From Fibrobacterota bacterium (GTDB taxonomy: Bacteria; Fibrobacterota; Fibrobacteria; UBA11236): a DNA stretch of 60,957 bases. The translations under genes were made by a program, and so were the position numbers. The notes under the pieces are model-generated. The model ran no database searches, had not been told where the DNA came from, and saw only the letters and a program-made list of their open reading frames with translations. Shown here one piece after another: positions 46,741-56,947 of this stretch; the first letter of the stretch is position 1, and every line of letters starts with the position of its first letter. Location: NCBI GenBank assembly GCA_028287465.1, contig JAQBPO010000011.1:1-60957 (forward strand), read 5' to 3'.

Positions 46741-46773
46741 TCGGCCAACGATCGGCTAACGATCGGCTAACGA
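46741..46773. repeat. Three 11-bp tandem repeats
   Basis: TCGGCCAACGA, TCGGCTAACGA, TCGGCTAACGA at 46741, 46752 and 46763. They fill the gap between two convergent genes and include the stop codon of the minus-strand one. Confidence 0.8.
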
Positions 46774-48470
46774 CCGGCGAGGAAGGTCCCTTCCTGCCAC
46801 CGCGGGGGAGTGATGGATGCGTTCGCCGGGTTCACGTACTCACGATAAAGATTGTTCGCCAAAGAGAAGCGGAACCAGCCCTGGTCGCCCGGGCCGAAAG
46901 CTTCCGCGCTCAGCACGGGCAGATCCTGCTGGACGCCTCCCGCGGCCGTAGTCGTCACGGTGAACCGTCCCCAGTCCCTTTTGCGGGTCATGTAATATCC
47001 CGAGGCCCCTTCCGACCTCCGGACGCCGGGCGTCCCCAGTTCCGCGCCCATCTCGATCTCCAGGTTCTCGCAAAGCGGGTAATAATCGCCCGAGGCTTTC
47101 TGGAGCAGCTCCAATCTTATGCCCCACAATTCCCCTTGCCCATTGAAGGAAAGCCTGATCTTCGCCCGGGTTGCGCGCCGATCGGGAAAGGCGATCATGT
47201 CGGCCGCGATTTCCCCGCTGTCCGCGCGGACGTTCGCGGCCTGGTAAAGGCCCAGGTTGGCGCGGCATTCCTTGGCGCCCATTCCCCAATAGAATCCCAT
47301 GAGCCCCACCGGCACGCGCAATTGATCGGCGCCGAGCAGGTCCAATAGCTCTTTGGCCTTTGAGTCGAACGCCACCGCGCCGTCGCGGAACTCCTTCATG
47401 GCCATGGGAATGCCCTCGGCGCTCCAGGTCCGATAGGAGCCGTTCAGGCGTCCGCCATGGTAATAGGCGAGCTCCTGCAAACCGCCCTTCGGGTACCAGA
47501 CTCGGCTGGGCCCTTCCTTTTTCCCGTCCGCGAACCGGCAATGCAGGCGCAGCTTTCCGCCCGGATGCCATTGGAAGAATTCCCCCTCCAACCGTCCCGC
47601 GGCGTAACGCGCCGCATAAAGGCGATCGCCGTCCGGGTACCAGGCCGTCTCTACGCCTTCCCGTTTCCCGGCGCGGAACTGCCCGCGCAACCTCGGCTTC
47701 CCGTTGGGGTACCATTCCTGATACCCCCCGTCGGCCTTCCCCAGGCGGTAGCTCGATCGGGACTTCCGCTGGCCGTCGGGGAACCATTCCTCCCATGCGC
47801 CTTGCTTTTCGCCCTTGACGTAGGCGGCGGACCACATGAGGTTGCCGCTGCGTCCAAAGGTGCGCCATTTGCCGGTGGGAACGTCATTCGAGTAGGCGCC
47901 TTCCAGCCACGGGGTTCCGTCGGGATACCATGCCTTGACCGGACCCGTGAGGCGGCCGGATTGGTAATAGCGGGTGGCCATGGTCCTGCCGTCGTCGTAA
48001 ATCATGGTGCAAAGGCCGTGTTTCGCGGGCTTTCCGCCCGCGGCTTCGGACCAGGCGCAGGTCTCCTTCGCCATCATGGAGTCGCCGGCCGATCCGATGG
48101 CCTTCACGATTTCCGTTTTGACCGAGTAACGTTTTTCGGCCGATGCGGCTTCCGACCCGTCGAACCGGGTCTCGCGCACGAGGAAGTCATCCCGGTATTC
48201 GCCTTGGAAGGAGAGTCTACCCCGCGGGTCCCAGGCGCGCGCTTCCCCGTTCTTCCTTCCTCCGCGGTATTCCACCGAACTTTCCTTGCTGCCGTCGGAA
48301 TAGAAGGATTGGAAGAGGCCTTCGCGCACCGTCGGTTTGCCTTCAGGGCCTTTCTCCTTCCACATTTCGCGGATTTTGCCGGAAGGAAAGCGGACGACGT
48401 GGATCGTGCCGTCATCGCATGCGCATAACGCCAGCGCGAAAAGGAATGCGATACGGAATCTTGAAGGCAT
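46767..48470 (-). CDS. Lipoprotein with MORN-type repeats
   Basis: Protein of 567 aa. The signal peptide ends in LCAC (lipobox-like). Residues about 25-380 are a row of roughly ten or more MORN_2/YwqK-like repeats of about 23 residues with core patterns such as GxxxxWYPDGxxxxxxxYxxG (examples: AWYPDGTPWLEGAYSNDVPT, EWYPNGKPRLRGQFRAGKRE). The C-terminal about 180 residues are a separate beta-rich domain. MORN_2 proteins are extended beta-sheets on the cell surface or periplasm. ATG at 48470 has GAGGGG upstream; the longer reading to 48524 is not supported. Confidence 0.8.
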   Translation of the reverse strand: MPSRFRIAFLFALALCACDDGTIHVVRFPSGKIREMWKEKGPEGKPTVREGLFQSFYSDGSKESSVEYRGGRKNGEARAWDPRGRLSFQGEYRDDFLVRETRFDGSEAASAEKRYSVKTEIVKAIGSAGDSMMAKETCAWSEAAGGKPAKHGLCTMIYDDGRTMATRYYQSGRLTGPVKAWYPDGTPWLEGAYSNDVPTGKWRTFGRSGNLMWSAAYVKGEKQGAWEEWFPDGQRKSRSSYRLGKADGGYQEWYPNGKPRLRGQFRAGKREGVETAWYPDGDRLYAARYAAGRLEGEFFQWHPGGKLRLHCRFADGKKEGPSRVWYPKGGLQELAYYHGGRLNGSYRTWSAEGIPMAMKEFRDGAVAFDSKAKELLDLLGADQLRVPVGLMGFYWGMGAKECRANLGLYQAANVRADSGEIAADMIAFPDRRATRAKIRLSFNGQGELWGIRLELLQKASGDYYPLCENLEIEMGAELGTPGVRRSEGASGYYMTRKRDWGRFTVTTTAAGGVQQDLPVLSAEAFGPGDQGWFRFSLANNLYREYVNPANASITPPRWQEGTFLAGR

Positions 48471-48627
48471 TTGCAATCCCCTCCGCGTGCCCGCGCGGAA
48501 TCCCATGAGGGGCGCCGGGTTCATCCAGAAGTTGTCGGTATATGATGCGCGGAACTTTAAGTTTTTTTCAAGCTTTGTCCTTTCGGGCGCAAACGTAAAA
48601 TTCGTAGTCTCCGCAAATGCCGGGTTG

Positions 48628-48633
48628 TATAAT
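48628..48633 (+). promoter_or_regulatory. Candidate -10 of the FliF/FliG-MotAB operon
   Basis: TATAAT, a perfect -10 hexamer, 10 nt before the chosen start at 48644. No good -35 at 17 nt. The mRNA leader would be only about 3-4 nt. Confidence 0.4.
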
Positions 48634-48643
48634 CACGTTTGCC

Positions 48644-50488
48644 ATGCCCAAGACCCTAAAAATCCCAACTATCGCCCTCGTTCTCGGAGCCGCCATTTGG
48701 GCTTCCGCGCAGCAGCCGCCGGCCGGCGCCAGGGCTCCCCAGGATCAGTCGGCCAAACTGGCCCAATACTACGAAAACATCGCGGCCAGGACCCTGTCCC
48801 GGTATTACGAGGAATCGACCTACCTCGTGAAGGCCAAGATCGAGATGGAACCCCCTCCCGAGATCGAACTCGGCGGCGATGATCCCTCGTCCCTGCCCGG
48901 CGAAGCGCCCCAGCAGCTGCCCGGGCTTCCTTTCCTGCCCGAGAGCATGCAGCCGGCCGCTCCGGCCCCGCCCTCGGCCGAGGCCGGGAAACAGAATCCC
49001 GGGGGTATCCAGTCGGTTACCCTGGACATCCTGGTGGACACGGGGTATTCGGAAAAGGATGTGGATTTCATCCGCAACCTCCTCGTCATGGCCACGCGCA
49101 TCGACGAACTTCGCGGCGATCGGGTCTCCGTCCATGAGGGCGTGTTCCCCAGGGACAATCGCGCCCTCACCAGCTACCGCAAGCCCGTGGAACCCCCGCC
49201 CATGCCCGCCCCCCAGGGACAGGCCAGGAACGACTCGGCCTCGAAGAAGGAAGATCCGAAGGATAAGGACAAGGATGCGTCCGCGAATCCCTTCAGCTCC
49301 TACACCGATCACCTGCCCTCCCTGATCCCGCTCCTGCTGATCTGCCTGCTCATCCTCGCCTGCGTCTGGATGGTATCCAGGGCCATAATCGGATCCTCGG
49401 CCAACCGCAATCAGGACAGGAACCCGCAGCCCCCGGCGCCCGCGCCCGAACCGCCCAAGGCCGTCGCGGCCGCCCCCCGGCAGGAGAACGGCAAAGGCCA
49501 ACCCGGTGAACTGGGCGCCTTCCGCCCCTTCCTCCTGAACTGCTTCGTGGGCAGTCCAAAGCATTGCGGCCAGATCATCAAGAGTTGGATCCAACGCGAA
49601 CCCGACAAGGGCCTGCGCGACTCCGGCGCCATGATCGCCAGCCTGGACGTGCGTCTCATGGCCGTGGTCGCGCCCGAACTGGGCCGGGAACTTTCGCAGA
49701 AGCTGGAAGGCTACGTGAACATCGGCGAGGCCATGCCCCCGGAAGAACTGCTGACGGTCTACAAGGAATTCAAACGCGAATACCAGAACCTGGCCAACGG
49801 CCACATGGACGACGATCAGTACAAGGACCTCTTCGGGTTCCTGTTGCAGATGAACGAACAGCAGATCATGCATATCCTGCGCGACGAGTCCCTGGGAATC
49901 GTTGGCCTCGTGCTAGCGCAGCTGCCCGGCGAGATGTCGAGCGGCATCCTGCAGAAGACGGACCCGGACAACAGGGCCAAACTGCTCATAGGCATGGGGA
50001 ACATCGACCATATCCCGCTCAACGTCTACAAGGAGATAGCCGACAGGCTCTCCCTGAAGGCGCTTGAGGTCGGCAACATGCGCTTCGTGGCCGCGGACGG
50101 CGTGGACAGCATCCTCGAGCTGATCGACAGCCTGCCCCTGAACCTGCAGTTCCAATACATCCATTCCATATCGGAGATGGATCTGGGCCTGGGCGAGAAG
50201 CTCCGTAACAGGTATGTCACCCTGCCGGAACTGGCCGGCCTGCCCGACAAATTCCTGGCCAATGTGCTGCAGGGGCTGGACCAGGAGACCCTGATCCTCG
50301 CTTTGCTCCACGTGGAAGACGCCATACGCGCCAAGATCCTCTCCCTGCTGCCGGAGCGCATGCAGATGATGGTATCGGGCGGCCTGGAAGGTTCCAGGGA
50401 CGCCACACCCAAGGATTCGGAAGTCGCGCAACGGCGCCTCTTGCACCGCATCCGCGACGAGATAAGGCATTCGGGGAGGCCTGCATGA
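48644..50488 (+). CDS. FliF-FliG-like hybrid rotor protein
   Basis: Protein of 614 aa. A signal peptide or anchor (about 1-23, AIWASAQ) is followed by an extracytoplasmic part (about 37-175) resembling the C-terminal ring domain of FliF (YYENIAARTLSRYYEEST; GGIQSVTLDILVDTG; RIDELRGDRVSVHEG). A Pro/Lys linker and a membrane span (about 222-247) follow, then about 330 cytoplasmic residues that read like FliG middle and C-terminal domains (ESLGIVGLVLAQLPGEMSSG; ALLHVEDAIRAKILSLLPER; EVAQRRLLHRIRDEIR). FliF ring domains 1 and 2 are missing. Followed by FlgO-like, TPR, MotA and MotB genes with overlaps. Likely a rotor-like ring for MotAB (inference). ATG at 48617 is the alternative start. Confidence 0.7.
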   Translation: MPKTLKIPTIALVLGAAIWASAQQPPAGARAPQDQSAKLAQYYENIAARTLSRYYEESTYLVKAKIEMEPPPEIELGGDDPSSLPGEAPQQLPGLPFLPESMQPAAPAPPSAEAGKQNPGGIQSVTLDILVDTGYSEKDVDFIRNLLVMATRIDELRGDRVSVHEGVFPRDNRALTSYRKPVEPPPMPAPQGQARNDSASKKEDPKDKDKDASANPFSSYTDHLPSLIPLLLICLLILACVWMVSRAIIGSSANRNQDRNPQPPAPAPEPPKAVAAAPRQENGKGQPGELGAFRPFLLNCFVGSPKHCGQIIKSWIQREPDKGLRDSGAMIASLDVRLMAVVAPELGRELSQKLEGYVNIGEAMPPEELLTVYKEFKREYQNLANGHMDDDQYKDLFGFLLQMNEQQIMHILRDESLGIVGLVLAQLPGEMSSGILQKTDPDNRAKLLIGMGNIDHIPLNVYKEIADRLSLKALEVGNMRFVAADGVDSILELIDSLPLNLQFQYIHSISEMDLGLGEKLRNRYVTLPELAGLPDKFLANVLQGLDQETLILALLHVEDAIRAKILSLLPERMQMMVSGGLEGSRDATPKDSEVAQRRLLHRIRDEIRHSGRPA

Positions 50489-51624
50489 GATTCGCCTCCG
50501 TTTCCGGGGCCGGTCCGCTGCCGGCCCTGCTCCTGGCCGCATCCCTACTCTGCAATCCGCCCGCCTCGGCGGCTCCCGCCCCCGCTGCCGATCCCTTCGC
50601 CCCCAGTTCCACCGGCATCCGGCAGATCGGCGAGATCATGGGCCGCCTCACCAAGACCATGGGAGACTTGCCTCCCAATATCGAGCGCCTCGCCCTCTCC
50701 CAGATCAAGACCGATCCCAGGGAATTCAACCCGGGCATGTCACGTTATATCCAGGCGCAGATCGAAGAGATCTTCCGCAAGGAAGGCCGCCGCACCGTCG
50801 TCACCTCCCCGGAGCTCCGCACCTTCCGCGTCGTGGCGACCGATAGTTCCTTCAAATTCTCGAACACCCTCCCGTCGATGGAAGACCTTTGGAAACTGGG
50901 CGATAAGTTGCGCGTGGACGGGTACATCGAAGGGTCCTGCTCCAAGAGCGCGGACAATGACGTAATCCTGAACCTCAAGGTATTCCGCCACCGCACGGGG
51001 GAAATCGTCTGGTCCGGGAGCTTCGTGGCCGGCCCCAACGAGAAGAAGCCCGATATCTGGAACCTGGACTGGAGCGCTTCCGCCAACGTACGCCTCTTCC
51101 CGATCAAGCAAGGGATCCTGGACCGCCCAGACACCCTGACCTCGGCCAACCTCCCCGTCACCGATACCCTTTCCGATCTGGCCCTGACCATGTACGGCGT
51201 CGAAGGCACGGTCAGCGAAGTGGTCACTCCGGACAAGTTCCTGCTCTTCTCCGTCTCGCTGGGTTACGGACTCGCTTCCGGGGGCGGCGGACCGGACAGC
51301 CTCGCCGTCAATTTCAACATCCAGATGGCCAAGTTCGGCATCGAGATGCTCGGGATCTTCTTCCGCAAGTCCAATCCCGATCTCGGTTATTGGCTGGGCA
51401 CCTACGTGGGCTACCAGGAATTCATCCCGTTCTTGAACCGGGGGCATGTCAGCGCGCTCACCGTCGGATACAAATCCCGCGTCAGCCGCCATTTCACCTT
51501 GGGCGGGGGCATCATGTTCCTCCCCCTCAACCGAAACCTGAAAGGGTTGGGCGCGGATGAAGATCGCTTCCTCACCCTGGAACCCGTAGCCTATGAACTC
51601 ACCTACCTCCATTACACGTTCTAA
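50485..51624 (+). CDS. Outer-membrane protein with FlgO/CsgG-like N-terminal domain
   Basis: Protein of 379 aa with a signal peptide (ASAAPAP). Residues about 60-190 (IERLALSQIKTDPREFNPGM; DGYIEGSCSKSADNDVILNL; RTGEIVWSGSFVAGP) resemble the FlgO / CsgG-type periplasmic domain found in outer-membrane assembly lipoproteins. The C-terminal about 150 residues have alternating strands ending in YLHYTF with terminal Phe, typical of an outer-membrane beta-barrel. Start overlaps the previous stop by 4 nt. In the operon it would be the outer-membrane element (inference). FlgO assignment is tentative. Confidence 0.55.
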   Translation: MRFASVSGAGPLPALLLAASLLCNPPASAAPAPAADPFAPSSTGIRQIGEIMGRLTKTMGDLPPNIERLALSQIKTDPREFNPGMSRYIQAQIEEIFRKEGRRTVVTSPELRTFRVVATDSSFKFSNTLPSMEDLWKLGDKLRVDGYIEGSCSKSADNDVILNLKVFRHRTGEIVWSGSFVAGPNEKKPDIWNLDWSASANVRLFPIKQGILDRPDTLTSANLPVTDTLSDLALTMYGVEGTVSEVVTPDKFLLFSVSLGYGLASGGGGPDSLAVNFNIQMAKFGIEMLGIFFRKSNPDLGYWLGTYVGYQEFIPFLNRGHVSALTVGYKSRVSRHFTLGGGIMFLPLNRNLKGLGADEDRFLTLEPVAYELTYLHYTF

Positions 51625-51628
51625 GCCC

Positions 51629-52777
51629 ATGCTCCGCGCGGGAACCCTGGCAAGCATGGCCGCCGCCCTGTTCATGGGTTGCGGCGGAAGCGCGCCCGAT
51701 CCCCGGGACCGCGGATCCGATCCCGCGCCCGCGGCCCAATCCCAGGAAGGGGAGAACGGCGAAGGCACCATCAGCTTCCACTATTCCAACAAGAGCACGG
51801 ACGCCAACCTGGCCATCGACCTGGGCAATACCGATCTCTACATGGAGATGACGGGCCTGCCCAAGGCCCCGGCCGAGGAAGCCCGCCCCCCCGAGCGCAA
51901 GCCGGACGAAGCGCGCCCGGCCCCCCGCCCGCAACCGCAAGCCCAGGCGGAGAAGGAACCGGACCCGGGCGAGGAGGAACCGGCTCCCTCCAAGGCGGCC
52001 AAGCGCAAGCCCGCGCCGAAAAAGGACAAGGAAGAGGAAAAGGACGCCGGTTCCAAACTGGAATTGCCCAAGGATGAGGAGCAGCCCGATTACGAGGACG
52101 TAACGGCCAAGGTACTGACCGGGATCCGCAAGGCGCAGGAGCTTTTCTACCAGAAGCGGTATCCCGAAGCCATGCTGGCCGTCAAATCCTCCCTGGACGC
52201 GCGCCCCACCGCGGAAGGCTACGCCCTGGCCGGCAGCATCCACTATATGATGGGGCAGAACGGCATGGCCCGCCGCCAATGGAGCGAGGCGCTCCGCCTC
52301 AACCCGGACATGCCTTCCGTGGTCAATATGCTCGAGAAGACGCGCACCCCCGGGGGCCGCGGTTCGCCTTCCCCGCGCCCCATACAGTCCCGACCGGCCG
52401 CGGTCCGTCAGGTGCCTTCCCTGCCGGAAGCGGACAACCCGCCCTTCCCCGAGGAATACTCCGGGCCATCCGTAGGCGTGCCAATGGCCGCTCCCGCCGC
52501 TCCGCAGGCACCCGCCTCGGGTCCCGGAACCCGCCCCTCGCCGGTTCCGGAACCCGAACCGGCCTCCGAAGAGGCCGTGACCGCTCCAGCAGCCGCGCCC
52601 GCCGGTGAAGCCGCCGCAACCCCCGCTCCCGAAGCCGCACCCGCCGAGCCCGCCGTAAGGCCTTCGGCCAAGCACGCCGCCGCCAAACCCCCGGCTCCCG
52701 TCCCGGCCAAGCCTCAGGCTCCCGCGCCCTCCAAGGCCGCGGATAGCGTCAAGACCAAGGAGAAGAAGGCCAAATGA
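51629..52777 (+). CDS. TPR lipoprotein with long Pro/Ala/Lys-rich linkers
   Basis: Protein of 382 aa. A lipoprotein-type signal ends FMGC. An acidic/Pro-rich stretch (about 65-140) comes before a TPR-like helical pair (about 150-225: KAQELFYQKRYPEAMLAVKS; AGSIHYMMGQNGMARRQW), and a second Pro/Ala-rich, disordered region (about 240-382) ends KTKEKKAK. Such linkers can cross the periplasm and peptidoglycan. It begins 4 nt after the upstream stop; ATG at 51593, inside the upstream gene, is an alternative. It overlaps motA by 4 nt. Confidence 0.7.
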   Translation: MLRAGTLASMAAALFMGCGGSAPDPRDRGSDPAPAAQSQEGENGEGTISFHYSNKSTDANLAIDLGNTDLYMEMTGLPKAPAEEARPPERKPDEARPAPRPQPQAQAEKEPDPGEEEPAPSKAAKRKPAPKKDKEEEKDAGSKLELPKDEEQPDYEDVTAKVLTGIRKAQELFYQKRYPEAMLAVKSSLDARPTAEGYALAGSIHYMMGQNGMARRQWSEALRLNPDMPSVVNMLEKTRTPGGRGSPSPRPIQSRPAAVRQVPSLPEADNPPFPEEYSGPSVGVPMAAPAAPQAPASGPGTRPSPVPEPEPASEEAVTAPAAAPAGEAAATPAPEAAPAEPAVRPSAKHAAAKPPAPVPAKPQAPAPSKAADSVKTKEKKAK

Positions 52778-53580
52778 TTTCCCTATCCACGGTCTGCGGC
52801 GTCATTTTCGGATTCCTCGTCATCGCTGCGGGCATCCTGCATGAAACCAAGGATTGGAAAGTCTTCATCAGCCTGGCCAGTTTCCTGATCGTCTTCGGAG
52901 GCACGGTCACGGTCACCTTCATCGGCTTCCGTTTCCAATACGTCTGGAACGCCTTCACCGCAACCCTGCGCATCTTCCTCAAGCAGACCATTTCCGCCAA
53001 AAGCCTGGTGAACGACGTGAAGACCGCCATCGAGTGGCAGAAGAAGGTCCAGGCCGAAGGCCAGACCGCCTACGATTCCATTTCCAAGAACAGCAAGGAC
53101 GAGTTCACCAGGTACATCTTCAACCTGGCCAGCACGGGTTATAAGCCCGACGATATACGCGAGTTCGGCACCACGAATCTGGAAGAGCATTATTTCCGCC
53201 ATCTGCAGGAATCCAGCATCCTCAATACCATGGCCTCCATGACCCCGGCCTTCGGCCTGGTGGGGACCCTGTTGGGCCTCATCGTGATGTTGGGCAAGCT
53301 GGAAGACCCGTCCAAGCTGGGCCCGGGCCTCTCCCTGGCCCTGACCGCCACCCTCTACGGACTGCTCTTCGCCCGCTTCGTCTTCATGCCCGCTTCCACC
53401 AAGGTGAAACAGACCCTGAGCATCGAGCGTTTCCGCAACTTCCTGATCCTGGAAGCCGTAGTGCTCATCATGGAAAAGAAACCCGCCATGTACATCCAGG
53501 ACAAACTCAACTCCTACCTCGACCGCAAGGAACAGTATTCCATGTTCGGCGGCAACGCCGGTTCCGCGAAGGGCAAGTAG
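52774..53580 (+). CDS. motA: MotA-like stator proton-channel protein
   Basis: Membrane protein of 268 aa, the MotA size. Opening SLSTVCGVIFGFLVIAAGI and then the second span; LNTMASMTPAFGLVGTLLGL with IVMLGKLEDPSKLGPGLSLA is the conserved MotA/TolQ/ExbB pore region, and the large cytoplasmic loop (about 60-150) holds charged residues that in MotA touch FliG. The last part is a basic cytoplasmic tail. ATG overlaps the previous stop by 4 nt. It forms an ion-driven stator with MotB downstream. Confidence 0.92.
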   Translation: MISLSTVCGVIFGFLVIAAGILHETKDWKVFISLASFLIVFGGTVTVTFIGFRFQYVWNAFTATLRIFLKQTISAKSLVNDVKTAIEWQKKVQAEGQTAYDSISKNSKDEFTRYIFNLASTGYKPDDIREFGTTNLEEHYFRHLQESSILNTMASMTPAFGLVGTLLGLIVMLGKLEDPSKLGPGLSLALTATLYGLLFARFVFMPASTKVKQTLSIERFRNFLILEAVVLIMEKKPAMYIQDKLNSYLDRKEQYSMFGGNAGSAKGK

Positions 53581-53588
53581 GCGCCAGC

Positions 53589-54263
53589 ATGGCCGTCAGC
53601 AAGCATCATAACCGCTATCGTTCGAACGAGCACGAGGCCGCCGAAGAGGACTGGCTCATGAGCTACGCCGACATGGTGACGCTCCTGATGGCCTTTTTCC
53701 TGTCCATGCTTTCCGTCTCCCATATCGATCCCGTGCTCTTCGAGCAGATGAAGAAGGGGCTGCGCAGCGATATCGGCAAGGACAAGGACGTCAAGACCCC
53801 CCTGGGCGAGATCAAGCATGACCTGGATTCGCTCCTGGAGAAGGAACGCGAGCGCGGGGACGTGACCATCGACATGGGACGCGAGGGAATCATCCTGGAG
53901 TTCTCCAGTTCGGCCGTTTTCGATCCGGGCAAGGCCGAAGTGGGGGCGTCCGCGCGGGCGAACATGGACAAGGTCACGAGCGCCATGAAGGGTATCGAGT
54001 ATTACAAGTTCGCCGTCGACATCGAAGGCCATACCGACAATGTCCCCATCAAGACCCTGCAGTTCCCGTCCAACTGGGAACTGTCGGTGAACCGGGCCAC
54101 CAACATCGTGAAATACATGATCGAGAAGGGCATCCCCTCGGAACGCCTGAAGGCGGCGGGCTACGCCGACACCAAGCCCAAGGCCCCCAACGTGGACGGG
54201 GACGGGAAACCGCTCCCCGAAAACCAGGCCAGGAACCGCCGTATCGTGCTAAAGATCCATTAA
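53589..54263 (+). CDS. motB: MotB-like stator protein with OmpA-type peptidoglycan-binding domain
   Basis: Protein of 224 aa. One membrane span with the critical Asp (LMSYADMVTLLMAFFLSM, near residue 26) that carries protons, then a short linker and an OmpA/MotB domain (about 95-224): IEGHTDNVPIKTLQFPSNWE, LSVNRATNIVKYMIEKGIP, and NRRIVLKIH at the end. It anchors the stator to the cell wall. Starts 8 nt after motA. Its stop lies 8 nt from the stop of the convergent lipoprotein gene. Confidence 0.93.
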   Translation: MAVSKHHNRYRSNEHEAAEEDWLMSYADMVTLLMAFFLSMLSVSHIDPVLFEQMKKGLRSDIGKDKDVKTPLGEIKHDLDSLLEKERERGDVTIDMGREGIILEFSSSAVFDPGKAEVGASARANMDKVTSAMKGIEYYKFAVDIEGHTDNVPIKTLQFPSNWELSVNRATNIVKYMIEKGIPSERLKAAGYADTKPKAPNVDGDGKPLPENQARNRRIVLKIH

Positions 54264-54271
54264 GCGGATCC

Positions 54272-56767
54272 TCACAACCCGCCCGCCTGCTTGATCAATC
54301 CCTGGCTGATTCCCTGCGGGGGAGCCGGGTCGTAGAAGATCGACTTCACCGCCCCCAGTTCCGAACGCACGCCGCCCCGGATTACCGCCAGCCGGTAATG
54401 GTAGAACACCGCCGCGTTCCCGACGGTATTGTCGTTGTAGGAACCCGCGTACCCGGTGCCGTTCACCGCGGCCAGCAAGGCGAAGGATTTAAGGTCGTCG
54501 GGCGCGCCGGCGCTCCGGTAGATTTCCACGGTATCCGATACGCTTTGGCCGGGATAGGCGATTTGTACGCTCCCGGATCCCTTGGTCAGGCCGGTGATCT
54601 CCGGGGATCCGGTGAATTCGATCTTCACCGGTTGGGAACGGTAGATAGGGCCGTCCTGCCCCTGGATTTCCGGTTCCCGTTGCACCCAATAGTAATAGAC
54701 GCCTTTCGCGGGGGTGTCGTTGAGGATTTCGGCGTAAGGGTACCGCAAACTGTCCACCCTGGATCCATCGGCCCAGCCGGGCTTGGCGCTCCGCATCAGG
54801 TAGAGGACGCTGTAATAGACGCTGTTCATCGCGCATTCCACCCGCGTTCCCCGGTTCTCGATGGTGGCGTTCAGGGTGTTCGCGTATTGGGTGCCGAAGG
54901 TGAAAGCGGTCGAAGTGCGCAGGGAGGTTCCCGGTTCGGTCACGGACATGTCCTTCCGCACCGTGCGGGCCCGGTAGTTCCAGAATCCGTCCGTCGGCGG
55001 GCGATCCCGGAGTATGCCGTAGTTGGGGATCGCCGAGGAGACCGTATCCGCCGCGGTCCAATCCTTTCCGTCCGCGCTCCGCTCCAAAATGACGGCCAGT
55101 CCGTCCGGATCAGGGATGATGCCGATATCGATGCGCATGGCATAGACGGTGAGGGAGACCACGGAGGGACCGACCGGCTTGCCGGTGAATTCGATCCGGG
55201 TCGAGACGGAGCGGTAGACGGTGCCGTTGTCATAGGGCGCGGTCAGGTATCGGACCACCCGGTAGTACCAGATTCCAGGCGGGGGGATATCCTCCAGGTC
55301 CGAAGAAGGATTGGAGAATTCCAGGGTATCCACCGCCAGGGTATCCAATCCTCCCGGTGACTTGCTTCTATAGAGGACATGGAAGTAATCGGGGGAGCGG
55401 TTGATATTGGACTGCACGCGATCCCCGCGGTTCACGATGACGGCGTCCAAGGTGATGTACAGGGGATTGAAATGGAAGAAATCGGATCGGCGCCATCTCC
55501 CGGGATCGGTGCGCTCTCCGCTGATGCGAAGGCTGGCGATCCGGTAGTAATAGAACCCATCGGGGATGGGGCGATCGGTGAAATAGGTATTGAAAGGATA
55601 GGCCTGGGCGACGGGGAGGGTATCCACCACCTTCACGTCCTTGGCCGTGTCCTGGGCGCGTTCCAGGATATAGAAGCGCGCTTCGGGGTCGGGAACGGGT
55701 TGGATGGTGATCAAGCTGGTATTGACCTGGATGTTGCCGATATCGGGCCCCATCGGGTGCCCGGAGAAATGCACGGCCTTGGGCGCGGAACGCGCGCTGA
55801 CGCGGCCCCAGGGGTCCCGGGCATCGACCCAATAGAAATAGTCCCCCGAATCGGGCTGATCCCGCAGGGCCGAAAGGGCGTACTGGCCGGCGATGGTCAT
55901 GGAATCGACGCGGATCGCTCCGGCCTTCGCGCTGGTGGAGTTCCGGTACAGGAAATACCGGGAGATGCCGTTGCCGGTATAGGAGAGCGGATTGGCGAGG
56001 GTGGCCTGGACCTCCCGGTCCGCGATCCGCAGGTCGACGGAGGGCAGGTACTTCCAGACCGAATTCTTCAACTGGATGGAATCCCAAGGGCTGGCCGGAA
56101 GCGGGGTTTCCGAAATGGCGTCCACTCCCCTGACCCGGTAAAACACCCAGGAATCCTCGGCAACCAGGCTGGTGTCCAGGAAGGCCGGGAATCCCGAAGA
56201 GGCGAGTTCGACGGTATCCAGGGCGGTTTCCTTCCCTCGCGATCCCACCTTTCTTTCGACCACGAAAAACGAGATGACCTCGTCCCGGGGCGGGTAGATG
56301 CCGACCATGACCAGTTGCTCCTGGGTCAAGGAAAGGCGCACCTGGCCGGAGCGGGAATGCCCCGCATAGGCGTAGGCGTAGTCCGGCGATTTGTCGCTCA
56401 GGGAATCCAGGTTCCTGCCGTATTGCACGTCATAGGTATGGGTCCCGGCCTCGGTCAGGCTGTCCCGGAGGACGTAGACATGGGTACCGGTATCCGTGAC
56501 CCGGTGGTTCGGCGCTTCCAGGAGCTTCCCGTCCCGATGGATCCAATACTGGTTCTCTTCGCCGGGCCCGGATCCCAGGATGGTGATATAGACAAGGGAA
56601 TCGAAGGCGGTATAGGCGACCTTGGGCGTCCGCGGCTTGCGCGCCCCGGTCGCGGTCACCTGGGTCGAGTCGTTCCGGGCGGCATCGCCCGTCTTGGTAT
56701 CCATGACGCAGCCGTCCAGGGTCCAGAACGCGAAAGCGAACAGCAGGGACGTGAGAATCCGTTTCAT
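54272..56767 (-). CDS. Large lipoprotein with repeated FN3-like domains
   Basis: Protein of 831 aa. The signal peptide ends LDGC (unusual Asp before Gly-Cys, but a plausible lipobox). The body is a chain of about eight beta-sandwich repeats of 80-100 residues that look like fibronectin type III domains, with recurring patterns of the type FYILERAQDTAKD..., VVDTLPVAQ, and YYYRIASLRIS or WNYRARTVRKD at the ends. No catalytic site. Typical of Fibrobacterota surface proteins. It converges on motB. Confidence 0.8.
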   Translation of the reverse strand: MKRILTSLLFAFAFWTLDGCVMDTKTGDAARNDSTQVTATGARKPRTPKVAYTAFDSLVYITILGSGPGEENQYWIHRDGKLLEAPNHRVTDTGTHVYVLRDSLTEAGTHTYDVQYGRNLDSLSDKSPDYAYAYAGHSRSGQVRLSLTQEQLVMVGIYPPRDEVISFFVVERKVGSRGKETALDTVELASSGFPAFLDTSLVAEDSWVFYRVRGVDAISETPLPASPWDSIQLKNSVWKYLPSVDLRIADREVQATLANPLSYTGNGISRYFLYRNSTSAKAGAIRVDSMTIAGQYALSALRDQPDSGDYFYWVDARDPWGRVSARSAPKAVHFSGHPMGPDIGNIQVNTSLITIQPVPDPEARFYILERAQDTAKDVKVVDTLPVAQAYPFNTYFTDRPIPDGFYYYRIASLRISGERTDPGRWRRSDFFHFNPLYITLDAVIVNRGDRVQSNINRSPDYFHVLYRSKSPGGLDTLAVDTLEFSNPSSDLEDIPPPGIWYYRVVRYLTAPYDNGTVYRSVSTRIEFTGKPVGPSVVSLTVYAMRIDIGIIPDPDGLAVILERSADGKDWTAADTVSSAIPNYGILRDRPPTDGFWNYRARTVRKDMSVTEPGTSLRTSTAFTFGTQYANTLNATIENRGTRVECAMNSVYYSVLYLMRSAKPGWADGSRVDSLRYPYAEILNDTPAKGVYYYWVQREPEIQGQDGPIYRSQPVKIEFTGSPEITGLTKGSGSVQIAYPGQSVSDTVEIYRSAGAPDDLKSFALLAAVNGTGYAGSYNDNTVGNAAVFYHYRLAVIRGGVRSELGAVKSIFYDPAPPQGISQGLIKQAGGL

Positions 56768-56947
56768 TGAGGGCTCCAGGGGATGTCGGATGAAAACGCG
56801 CCCCAATAAATGCATAAAGCCGCCCATTCGGTCAATCGCGCGACGGGGTTTACAAGTGGATTCCAGGGTATGGAAGACCCCGGCCGGGAGAGGGAGGGGA
56901 AAGCACCACGGACCTTGGTGATCCCATCCGGTTTACGAGCGGCCGCG

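Follow-up and report, generated by a model that had tools for sequence, protein, structure and literature searches.

The 60,957-nt stretch analysed here (contig JAQBPO010000011.1 of the Fibrobacterota genome GCA_028287465.1; hereafter the window) harbours a five-gene operon encoding a fused FliF-FliG rotor protein, a secreted protein with a predicted outer-membrane barrel, a tetratricopeptide repeat (TPR) lipoprotein, and a MotA/MotB stator. With a probability of about 50%, this operon represents a second, dedicated and self-contained rotor-stator module, probably non-switching, alongside a normal flagellum. The genes, their domain order, their conservation, and their separateness from the flagellar loci were observed directly.

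Positions refer to the whole window. The operon comprises five co-directional open reading frames on the + strand, from 48644, or from an upstream ATG at 48617, to 54263. Genes 1 and 2 overlap by 4 bp (ATGA, 50485-50488), genes 2 and 3 by 32 bp (51593-51624), and genes 3 and 4 by 4 bp (52774-52777); a gap of 8 bp separates genes 4 and 5. This is in agreement with a preliminary description of the window, made from its sequence, in which five coupled genes had been recognised. The same description had seen no rod, hook, export or filament gene, and none was found in the operon or its neighbourhood in any locus read. Likewise, no flagellar gene adjoins the operon in any of these loci.

Rotor protein

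Gene 1 encodes a protein of 614 amino acids (623 from the upstream ATG), which carries a signal peptide ahead of a split RBM3. It exceeded the gathering scores of the Pfam models FliG_C and FliG_M by a good margin, and the terminal part of YscJ_FliF_C (PF08345) matched weakly (0.0017). For profile-profile comparison with hhalign, homologues from other genomes were aligned into profiles (A1, A2). The part after the membrane helix matched FliG (98.5%, E 1.9e-15, 285 columns), and the periplasmic part matched the RBM3 region of FliF (93%, E 2.9e-7), to which the RBM3 of the hybrid is about 15% identical. Two unrelated operon profiles, compared as controls with the same FliF profile, gave under 1%. 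The FliF/FliG hybrid proposed in the preliminary description is thus borne out by the Pfam matches and by the profile comparison with both FliG and FliF, which that description had suggested as a check.

In its predicted structure, a helix-strand, an insert, a strand-helix-strand and then a single membrane helix succeed one another, which corresponds to the split RBM3 and TM2 of FliF. The insert contains an LPGLPxxP motif, which may be a docking site for the product of gene 2 or gene 3. Beyond the membrane, the region resembling the FliF C-tail was placed by its profile with a z of 4.4, a score reached by 3 of 1000 shuffles, and contains an invariant P and W, 10 residues apart, in the hybrids as in FliF. 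Only RBM3, TM2 and the C-tail of FliF were recovered in gene 1, TM1, RBM1 and RBM2 being absent, and the NCBIfam-type fliF model did not match it. The fusion therefore retains the natural fliF-fliG order, minus the first membrane helix and RBM1/RBM2. In flagella, RBM1 and RBM2 seat the export gate and the rod; lacking them together with TM1, the hybrid offers no such seat and probably does not serve as the base of a further flagellum.

The FliG part has diverged from canonical FliG. Gene 1 scored 64.8 bits against the fliG equivalog TIGR00207, below the cut-off of 226.7, while the other FliG of the same genome scored 399.5. EHPQ, the FliM-binding motif of FliG, occurred in each of the 12 canonical FliGs in the alignment and was absent from all eight hybrids, where a DE(S/P)xG-type sequence replaces it. 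Among the torque-helix charges (E. coli K264, R281, D288, D289, and R297), only the equivalent of R281 is invariant in the hybrids, the other four being lost. Since EHPQ is absent, the hybrid is probably non-reversing. From these sequences, the rotor would not bind FliM, would not switch, and would be matched to its own MotA.

Stator and envelope proteins

Gene 4 matched MotA of PDB in the profile search with 1e-60 and TolQ with only 4e-4, the query profile including one flagellar MotA row, and its sequence places it in the MotA/PomA/MotP class rather than with TolQ. With the genome's own flagellar MotA it shares only 24% identity; together with the lost torque charges, this is as expected of a rotor-stator pair evolving separately. 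Gene 5 possesses a plug with an ion-binding Asp28 (SYADMVTLL), which is invariant, and an OmpA-type peptidoglycan-binding domain. The YAD, rather than FAD or FSD, beside Asp28 we take as a hint at protons. The pair thus has the features of a stator, namely the MotA_ExbB channel, the MotB plug with conserved Asp, and the OmpA domain, and the earlier assignment of both genes is upheld by PF01618, PF13677, PF00691 and the MotP/PomA/MotA models.

The model of gene 2 (AlphaFold2, AF2; mean predicted local distance difference test, pLDDT, 73) combines a periplasmic domain, for which LpoB was the best single-domain match with Foldseek (TM 0.71), and a predicted C-terminal barrel resembling OmpA/OmpW, which ends with an aromatic residue. 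The search with Pfam and NCBIfam-type models at E up to 1 detected no family, FlgO included, and the sequence had no meaningful match among solved structures. Of the name FlgO-like, given in the preliminary description, the LpoB/TolB-N/FlgT-class domain with its OmpA/OmpW-like barrel is therefore retained for the model, and membership of the FlgO family is not. The TPR lipoprotein was correctly recognised, given the TPR_2 and PDB TPR matches of gene 3 and the lipobox in most homologues (Table 1); its long Pro/Ala-rich C-terminus occurs in this genus only.

Table 1. Features of the operon, with positions in the window (H, helix; E, strand)
Feature	Position	Strand	Evidence
Gene 1, fused FliF(RBM3-TM-C-tail)-FliG(N-M-C) rotor protein	48644..50488	+	Pfam FliG_C/FliG_M/YscJ_FliF_C; hhalign to FliF, FliG; PDB profile matches to FliG; AF2/Foldseek
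RBM3 first half, helix-strand, residues 35-67	48746..48844	+	hhalign to FliF; AF2 H35-52, E60-67, pLDDT mostly <50
LPGLPxxP motif, short insert in place of FliF beta-collar	48917..48940	+	invariant in all 8-9 homologues
RBM3 second half, strand-helix-strand, residues 124-166, LVDTxY...RGDxxxVxxxxFP	49013..49141	+	PF08345; hhalign; AF2 E124-131, H137-155, E160-166, low confidence
Single transmembrane helix, position of FliF TM2	49313..49393	+	sequence hydrophobicity; AF2 H224-250
FliF C-tail-like FliG-binding helices	49520..49612	+	ungapped profile placement; invariants in alignments A2, A7
FliG N-like domain, shortened	49601..49819	+	hhalign; weak PF14842
FliG middle domain	49859..50077	+	PF14841 1.9e-12; alignment; Foldseek 4fq0_C TM 0.87, 1.3 Å
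FliG C-terminal domain	50165..50461	+	PF01706 7.1e-14; alignment; Foldseek 8ucs_H TM 0.85, 1.3 Å
Gene 2, secreted 379-aa protein, LpoB/TolB-N-type (FlgO/FlgT class) periplasmic domain and predicted C-terminal beta-barrel	50485..51624	+	AF2; Foldseek; conserved in 4 genera
Gene 3, lipoprotein with TPR core	51593..52777	+	TPR_2 1.5e-5; lipobox in most homologues; TPR core conserved; PDB TPR matches
Gene 4, MotA-family stator protein	52774..53580	+	PF01618 1.1e-22; MotP/PomA/MotA models 1e-41 to 1e-36; PDB MotA (see text)
Gene 5, MotB-family stator protein	53589..54263	+	PF13677 7e-16; PF00691 1.4e-16

Flagellar genes in the same genome

The genome encodes a full flagellar gene set on other contigs. 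Contig C17 carries flgB-flgC-fliE-fliF-fliG-fliH-fliI-fliJ, contig C41 carries genes for a flagellar-type sigma factor, flhF, flhA, flhB, fliR-Q-P-O, fliN, fliM, fliL, flbD, flgE, flgD, and fliK, and a second motAB is located on contig C95. Five flagellin-domain genes were found. Models confirmed the names FliF, FliG, FlhA, FliM, FliN, FliP, FlgE, rod protein, sigma factor, MotB, and flagellin, and some of the others were named from gene order and sequence. The preliminary description had presented the operon as a motor without a flagellum, which this gene set, elsewhere in the genome, contradicts in substance; the operon itself is unaffected. Its statement that motility in Fibrobacterota is non-flagellar also fails for this lineage, a FlhA-family gene being present in 60 of the 151 genomes sampled.

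GldM of the known gliding motor was not found in this genome, in a search whose Pfam control was uninformative. The genome also possesses a non-flagellar type III secretion cluster (G000:C73, L047, about 170000-188000 of the contig), with SctV, SctN and SctR above the NCBIfam cut-offs, SctU just below, and a FliMN_C/SctQ-like protein. Extra FlhA-family genes were likewise present in genome G090.

Distribution and selection

The hybrid was found in nine of 168 Fibrobacterota genomes, six of one genus and one of each of three other genera of the same class, a group of soil and freshwater bacteria. Similar to the operon of the window, gene order and overlaps are identical in the four genera wherever the contig is long enough, as the preliminary description had proposed to check, and the hybrid is 36-41% identical across them. 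All nine carriers possess a separate flagellar FliG, FlhA, and at least one other MotB, which lies on a contig with flagellar genes in G109, G131, and G093; the MotAB of the operon is thus an extra stator. Among the 151 sampled genomes, none of the 91 FlhA-negative ones carries the hybrid. Within the class, it occurs in four of about seven flagellated genera and in none of the remainder, and many flagellated relatives are without it. As the carriers are clustered by ancestry, the co-occurrence of hybrid and flagellum is suggestive only.

Against two genomes of the same genus, the ratio of nonsynonymous to synonymous substitution rates (dN/dS) was about 0.12-0.16 for four genes and 0.26-0.29 for gene 3, which indicates purifying selection and hence that the operon genes are maintained. 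A search with short peptide patterns, which extended to phyla beyond Fibrobacterota, matched seven loci, all of them from Fibrobacterota.

Partial FliG-like matches in G109:C224 and G148:C127 look like MgtE-N-type proteins rather than further hybrids. Probable MgtE-N-type proteins with a weak FliG_M score, not motor proteins, are also encoded in genus g14 (L064, 7447-8988, - strand; L065, 691-1950, + strand), the one in L064 adjoining a probable NRAMP-type transporter. The candidate in G129:C111 was rejected as a FliG with C-terminal extension. In L066 (2432-4153, - strand), a 573-aa FliG with an extra C-terminal segment resembling a second FliG_C adjoins fliM, on a partly masked contig.

Possible function and alternative explanations

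The preliminary description had proposed a dedicated envelope or gliding motor. The hybrid rotor, its own stator, and the conservation of a unit that includes neither rod nor hook nor export genes agree with this proposal, but its contrast with a flagellum-less cell does not stand, given the flagellar FliG and FlhA of all nine carriers. A motor is nonetheless the likeliest reading, in which we infer ring assembly, rotation and coupling. In this second rotor-stator module, gene 1 would form a ring from a single polypeptide, with periplasmic RBM3, one membrane helix and a cytoplasmic FliG torque ring, probably unable to reverse and offering no place for an export gate or rod. Its own MotA/MotB, anchored by MotB to peptidoglycan, would turn or push this ring, probably with protons, and the outer-membrane barrel protein and TPR lipoprotein would be its envelope partners, as bushing or load. 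Our guess is that the load would most likely be an envelope-spanning force for surface movement or attachment. More tentatively, the operon may encode a rod-less, export-less, non-switching rotary ring that unites MS-ring and C-ring in a single protein, has a MotAB and an outer-membrane complex of its own, and drives surface movement or another envelope process in flagellated cells. An engineered FliF-FliG fusion forms rings in hosts that are not motile, and a mutant carrying a FliF-FliG fusion was motile yet chemotactically defective (PMC6079021); a one-piece rotor is therefore physically feasible.

Several points weigh against this motor. In the periplasmic half of gene 1, AF2 confidence was low (mean pLDDT 61, pTM 0.28, the first 225 residues being mostly under 50), and the RBM3 assignment therefore relies mainly on profile comparison. 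Conservation is weaker in FliG_C, the domain that contacts the stator, than in FliG_M. Outside the genus, no obvious propulsive surface protein is conserved beside the operon, and all carriers are flagellated, which equally fits a flagellar accessory.

Because the hybrid always co-occurs with flagella, such an accessory is the main alternative. The outer-membrane protein, TPR lipoprotein and MotAB would then make up a scaffold in the periplasm that includes extra stators, and the fused FliF-FliG would serve as an additional or alternative rotor ring at the base of the flagellum, for instance when the load is high. The distribution described above agrees with it, both among genomes and among genera, as does the domain class of gene 2, the same as in FlgT and FlgO, and known flagellar motors have scaffold proteins of the TPR and FlgT types. 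Nevertheless, we consider it somewhat unlikely. No sigma-28-like promoter above shuffles was found upstream of the operon, the AT-rich G131 being a marginal exception, although one flagellin has such a promoter. The operon lies apart from flagellar genes, many flagellated relatives lack it, its torque helix and EHPQ region have diverged from flagellar FliG, and the low identity of its RBM3 makes co-assembly with FliF unlikely. An energised envelope system of the Tol-Pal/ExbBD type, in which MotAB would pass ion-driven force on to the barrel in the outer membrane or to the TPR lipoprotein, with the FliG-like protein acting as a scaffold or regulator and no ring rotating, appears improbable. Peptidoglycan-binding, TPR lipoprotein and TolB-N/LpoB-type parts, the several further MotA_ExbB-family genes of the genome, and the modest conservation of FliG_C are compatible with it, but gene 4 falls in the flagellar class with a weak TolQ match, and, if no ring is formed, it is difficult to see why the complete RBM3-TM-C-tail-FliG architecture has been kept.

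The weak similarity to canonical proteins and the loss of several canonical motifs could also point to a decaying, functionless duplicate of fliFG-motAB. This is very improbable, considering that order and overlaps are kept over four genera, the frames are open throughout, and dN/dS is about 0.12-0.3. Finally, MotB matches ZorB models weakly, which recalls the anti-phage Zorya system; this explanation was rejected as having a negligible chance, since of ZorA and ZorB with ZorC/D or ZorE only these ZorB matches were found, at 66.9 bits far below the 170.9 bits of the flagellar MotD/MotB models, and ZorA, ZorC and ZorD were unmatched in the operon.

Genomic surroundings

A TATAAT sequence within 48627-48646, just inside the upstream start at 48617, is kept in five of the six genus members read, the remaining one having TATACT; should this be a -10 element, gene 1 would truly begin at 48644 and have almost no leader. 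The divergent neighbour of the operon encodes a MORN_2-repeat protein (46767-48524, - strand), kept there within the genus and not in the three other carrier genera. Directly downstream of motB, a convergent gene (54272-56827, - strand) encodes a secreted, lipoprotein-like protein of 851 aa, to which no Pfam model matched.

Comparison with known systems

In the open-access literature, we did not find a natural FliF-FliG fusion, a FliG-like gliding motor, or a FliG-based non-flagellar motor, and FliG goes unmentioned in a gliding review of 2026. If it turns, the module would be the smallest flagellar-type rotor-stator known to us, and would show what a MotAB-FliG motor is capable of without rod, hook, filament, and export gate. 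The operon is a concrete, conserved and testable candidate.

Similar to the flagellar MS/C-ring with MotAB, the operon possesses RBM3-TM2-C-tail of FliF, N-M-C of FliG, MotA, and MotB with plug, ion-binding Asp and OmpA domain. Unlike it, the rotor is one fused polypeptide without TM1, RBM1 and RBM2, the beta-collar of FliF is swapped for the short insert with LPGLPxxP, FliM/FliN, rod, hook and export genes are absent from the operon, and the hybrid lacks EHPQ and most torque charges. In the Salmonella FliF-FliG fusion (PMC6079021; PDB 8z4d), FliF is likewise in frame with FliG, and the protein assembles rings and works as a rotor, with defective chemotaxis. That fusion is, however, a laboratory construct or mutant with full-length FliF, whereas the one described here is natural, N-terminally trimmed, and an extra copy. 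The periplasmic domain of gene 2 belongs to the same broad fold class as FlgT, similar to the T/H-ring accessories FlgT/FlgO/FlgP; it differs from these in its predicted transmembrane barrel, in having no FlgO family match, and in its best match to LpoB. AglRQS of Myxococcus gliding and GldLM of the type IX secretion system (T9SS) of Bacteroidota also use ion-driven stator-type proteins outside flagella for envelope or surface force (PMC13104615), but neither is known to rely on FliG or FliF as a rotor. The parts of the operon are known, and their combination is new to us.

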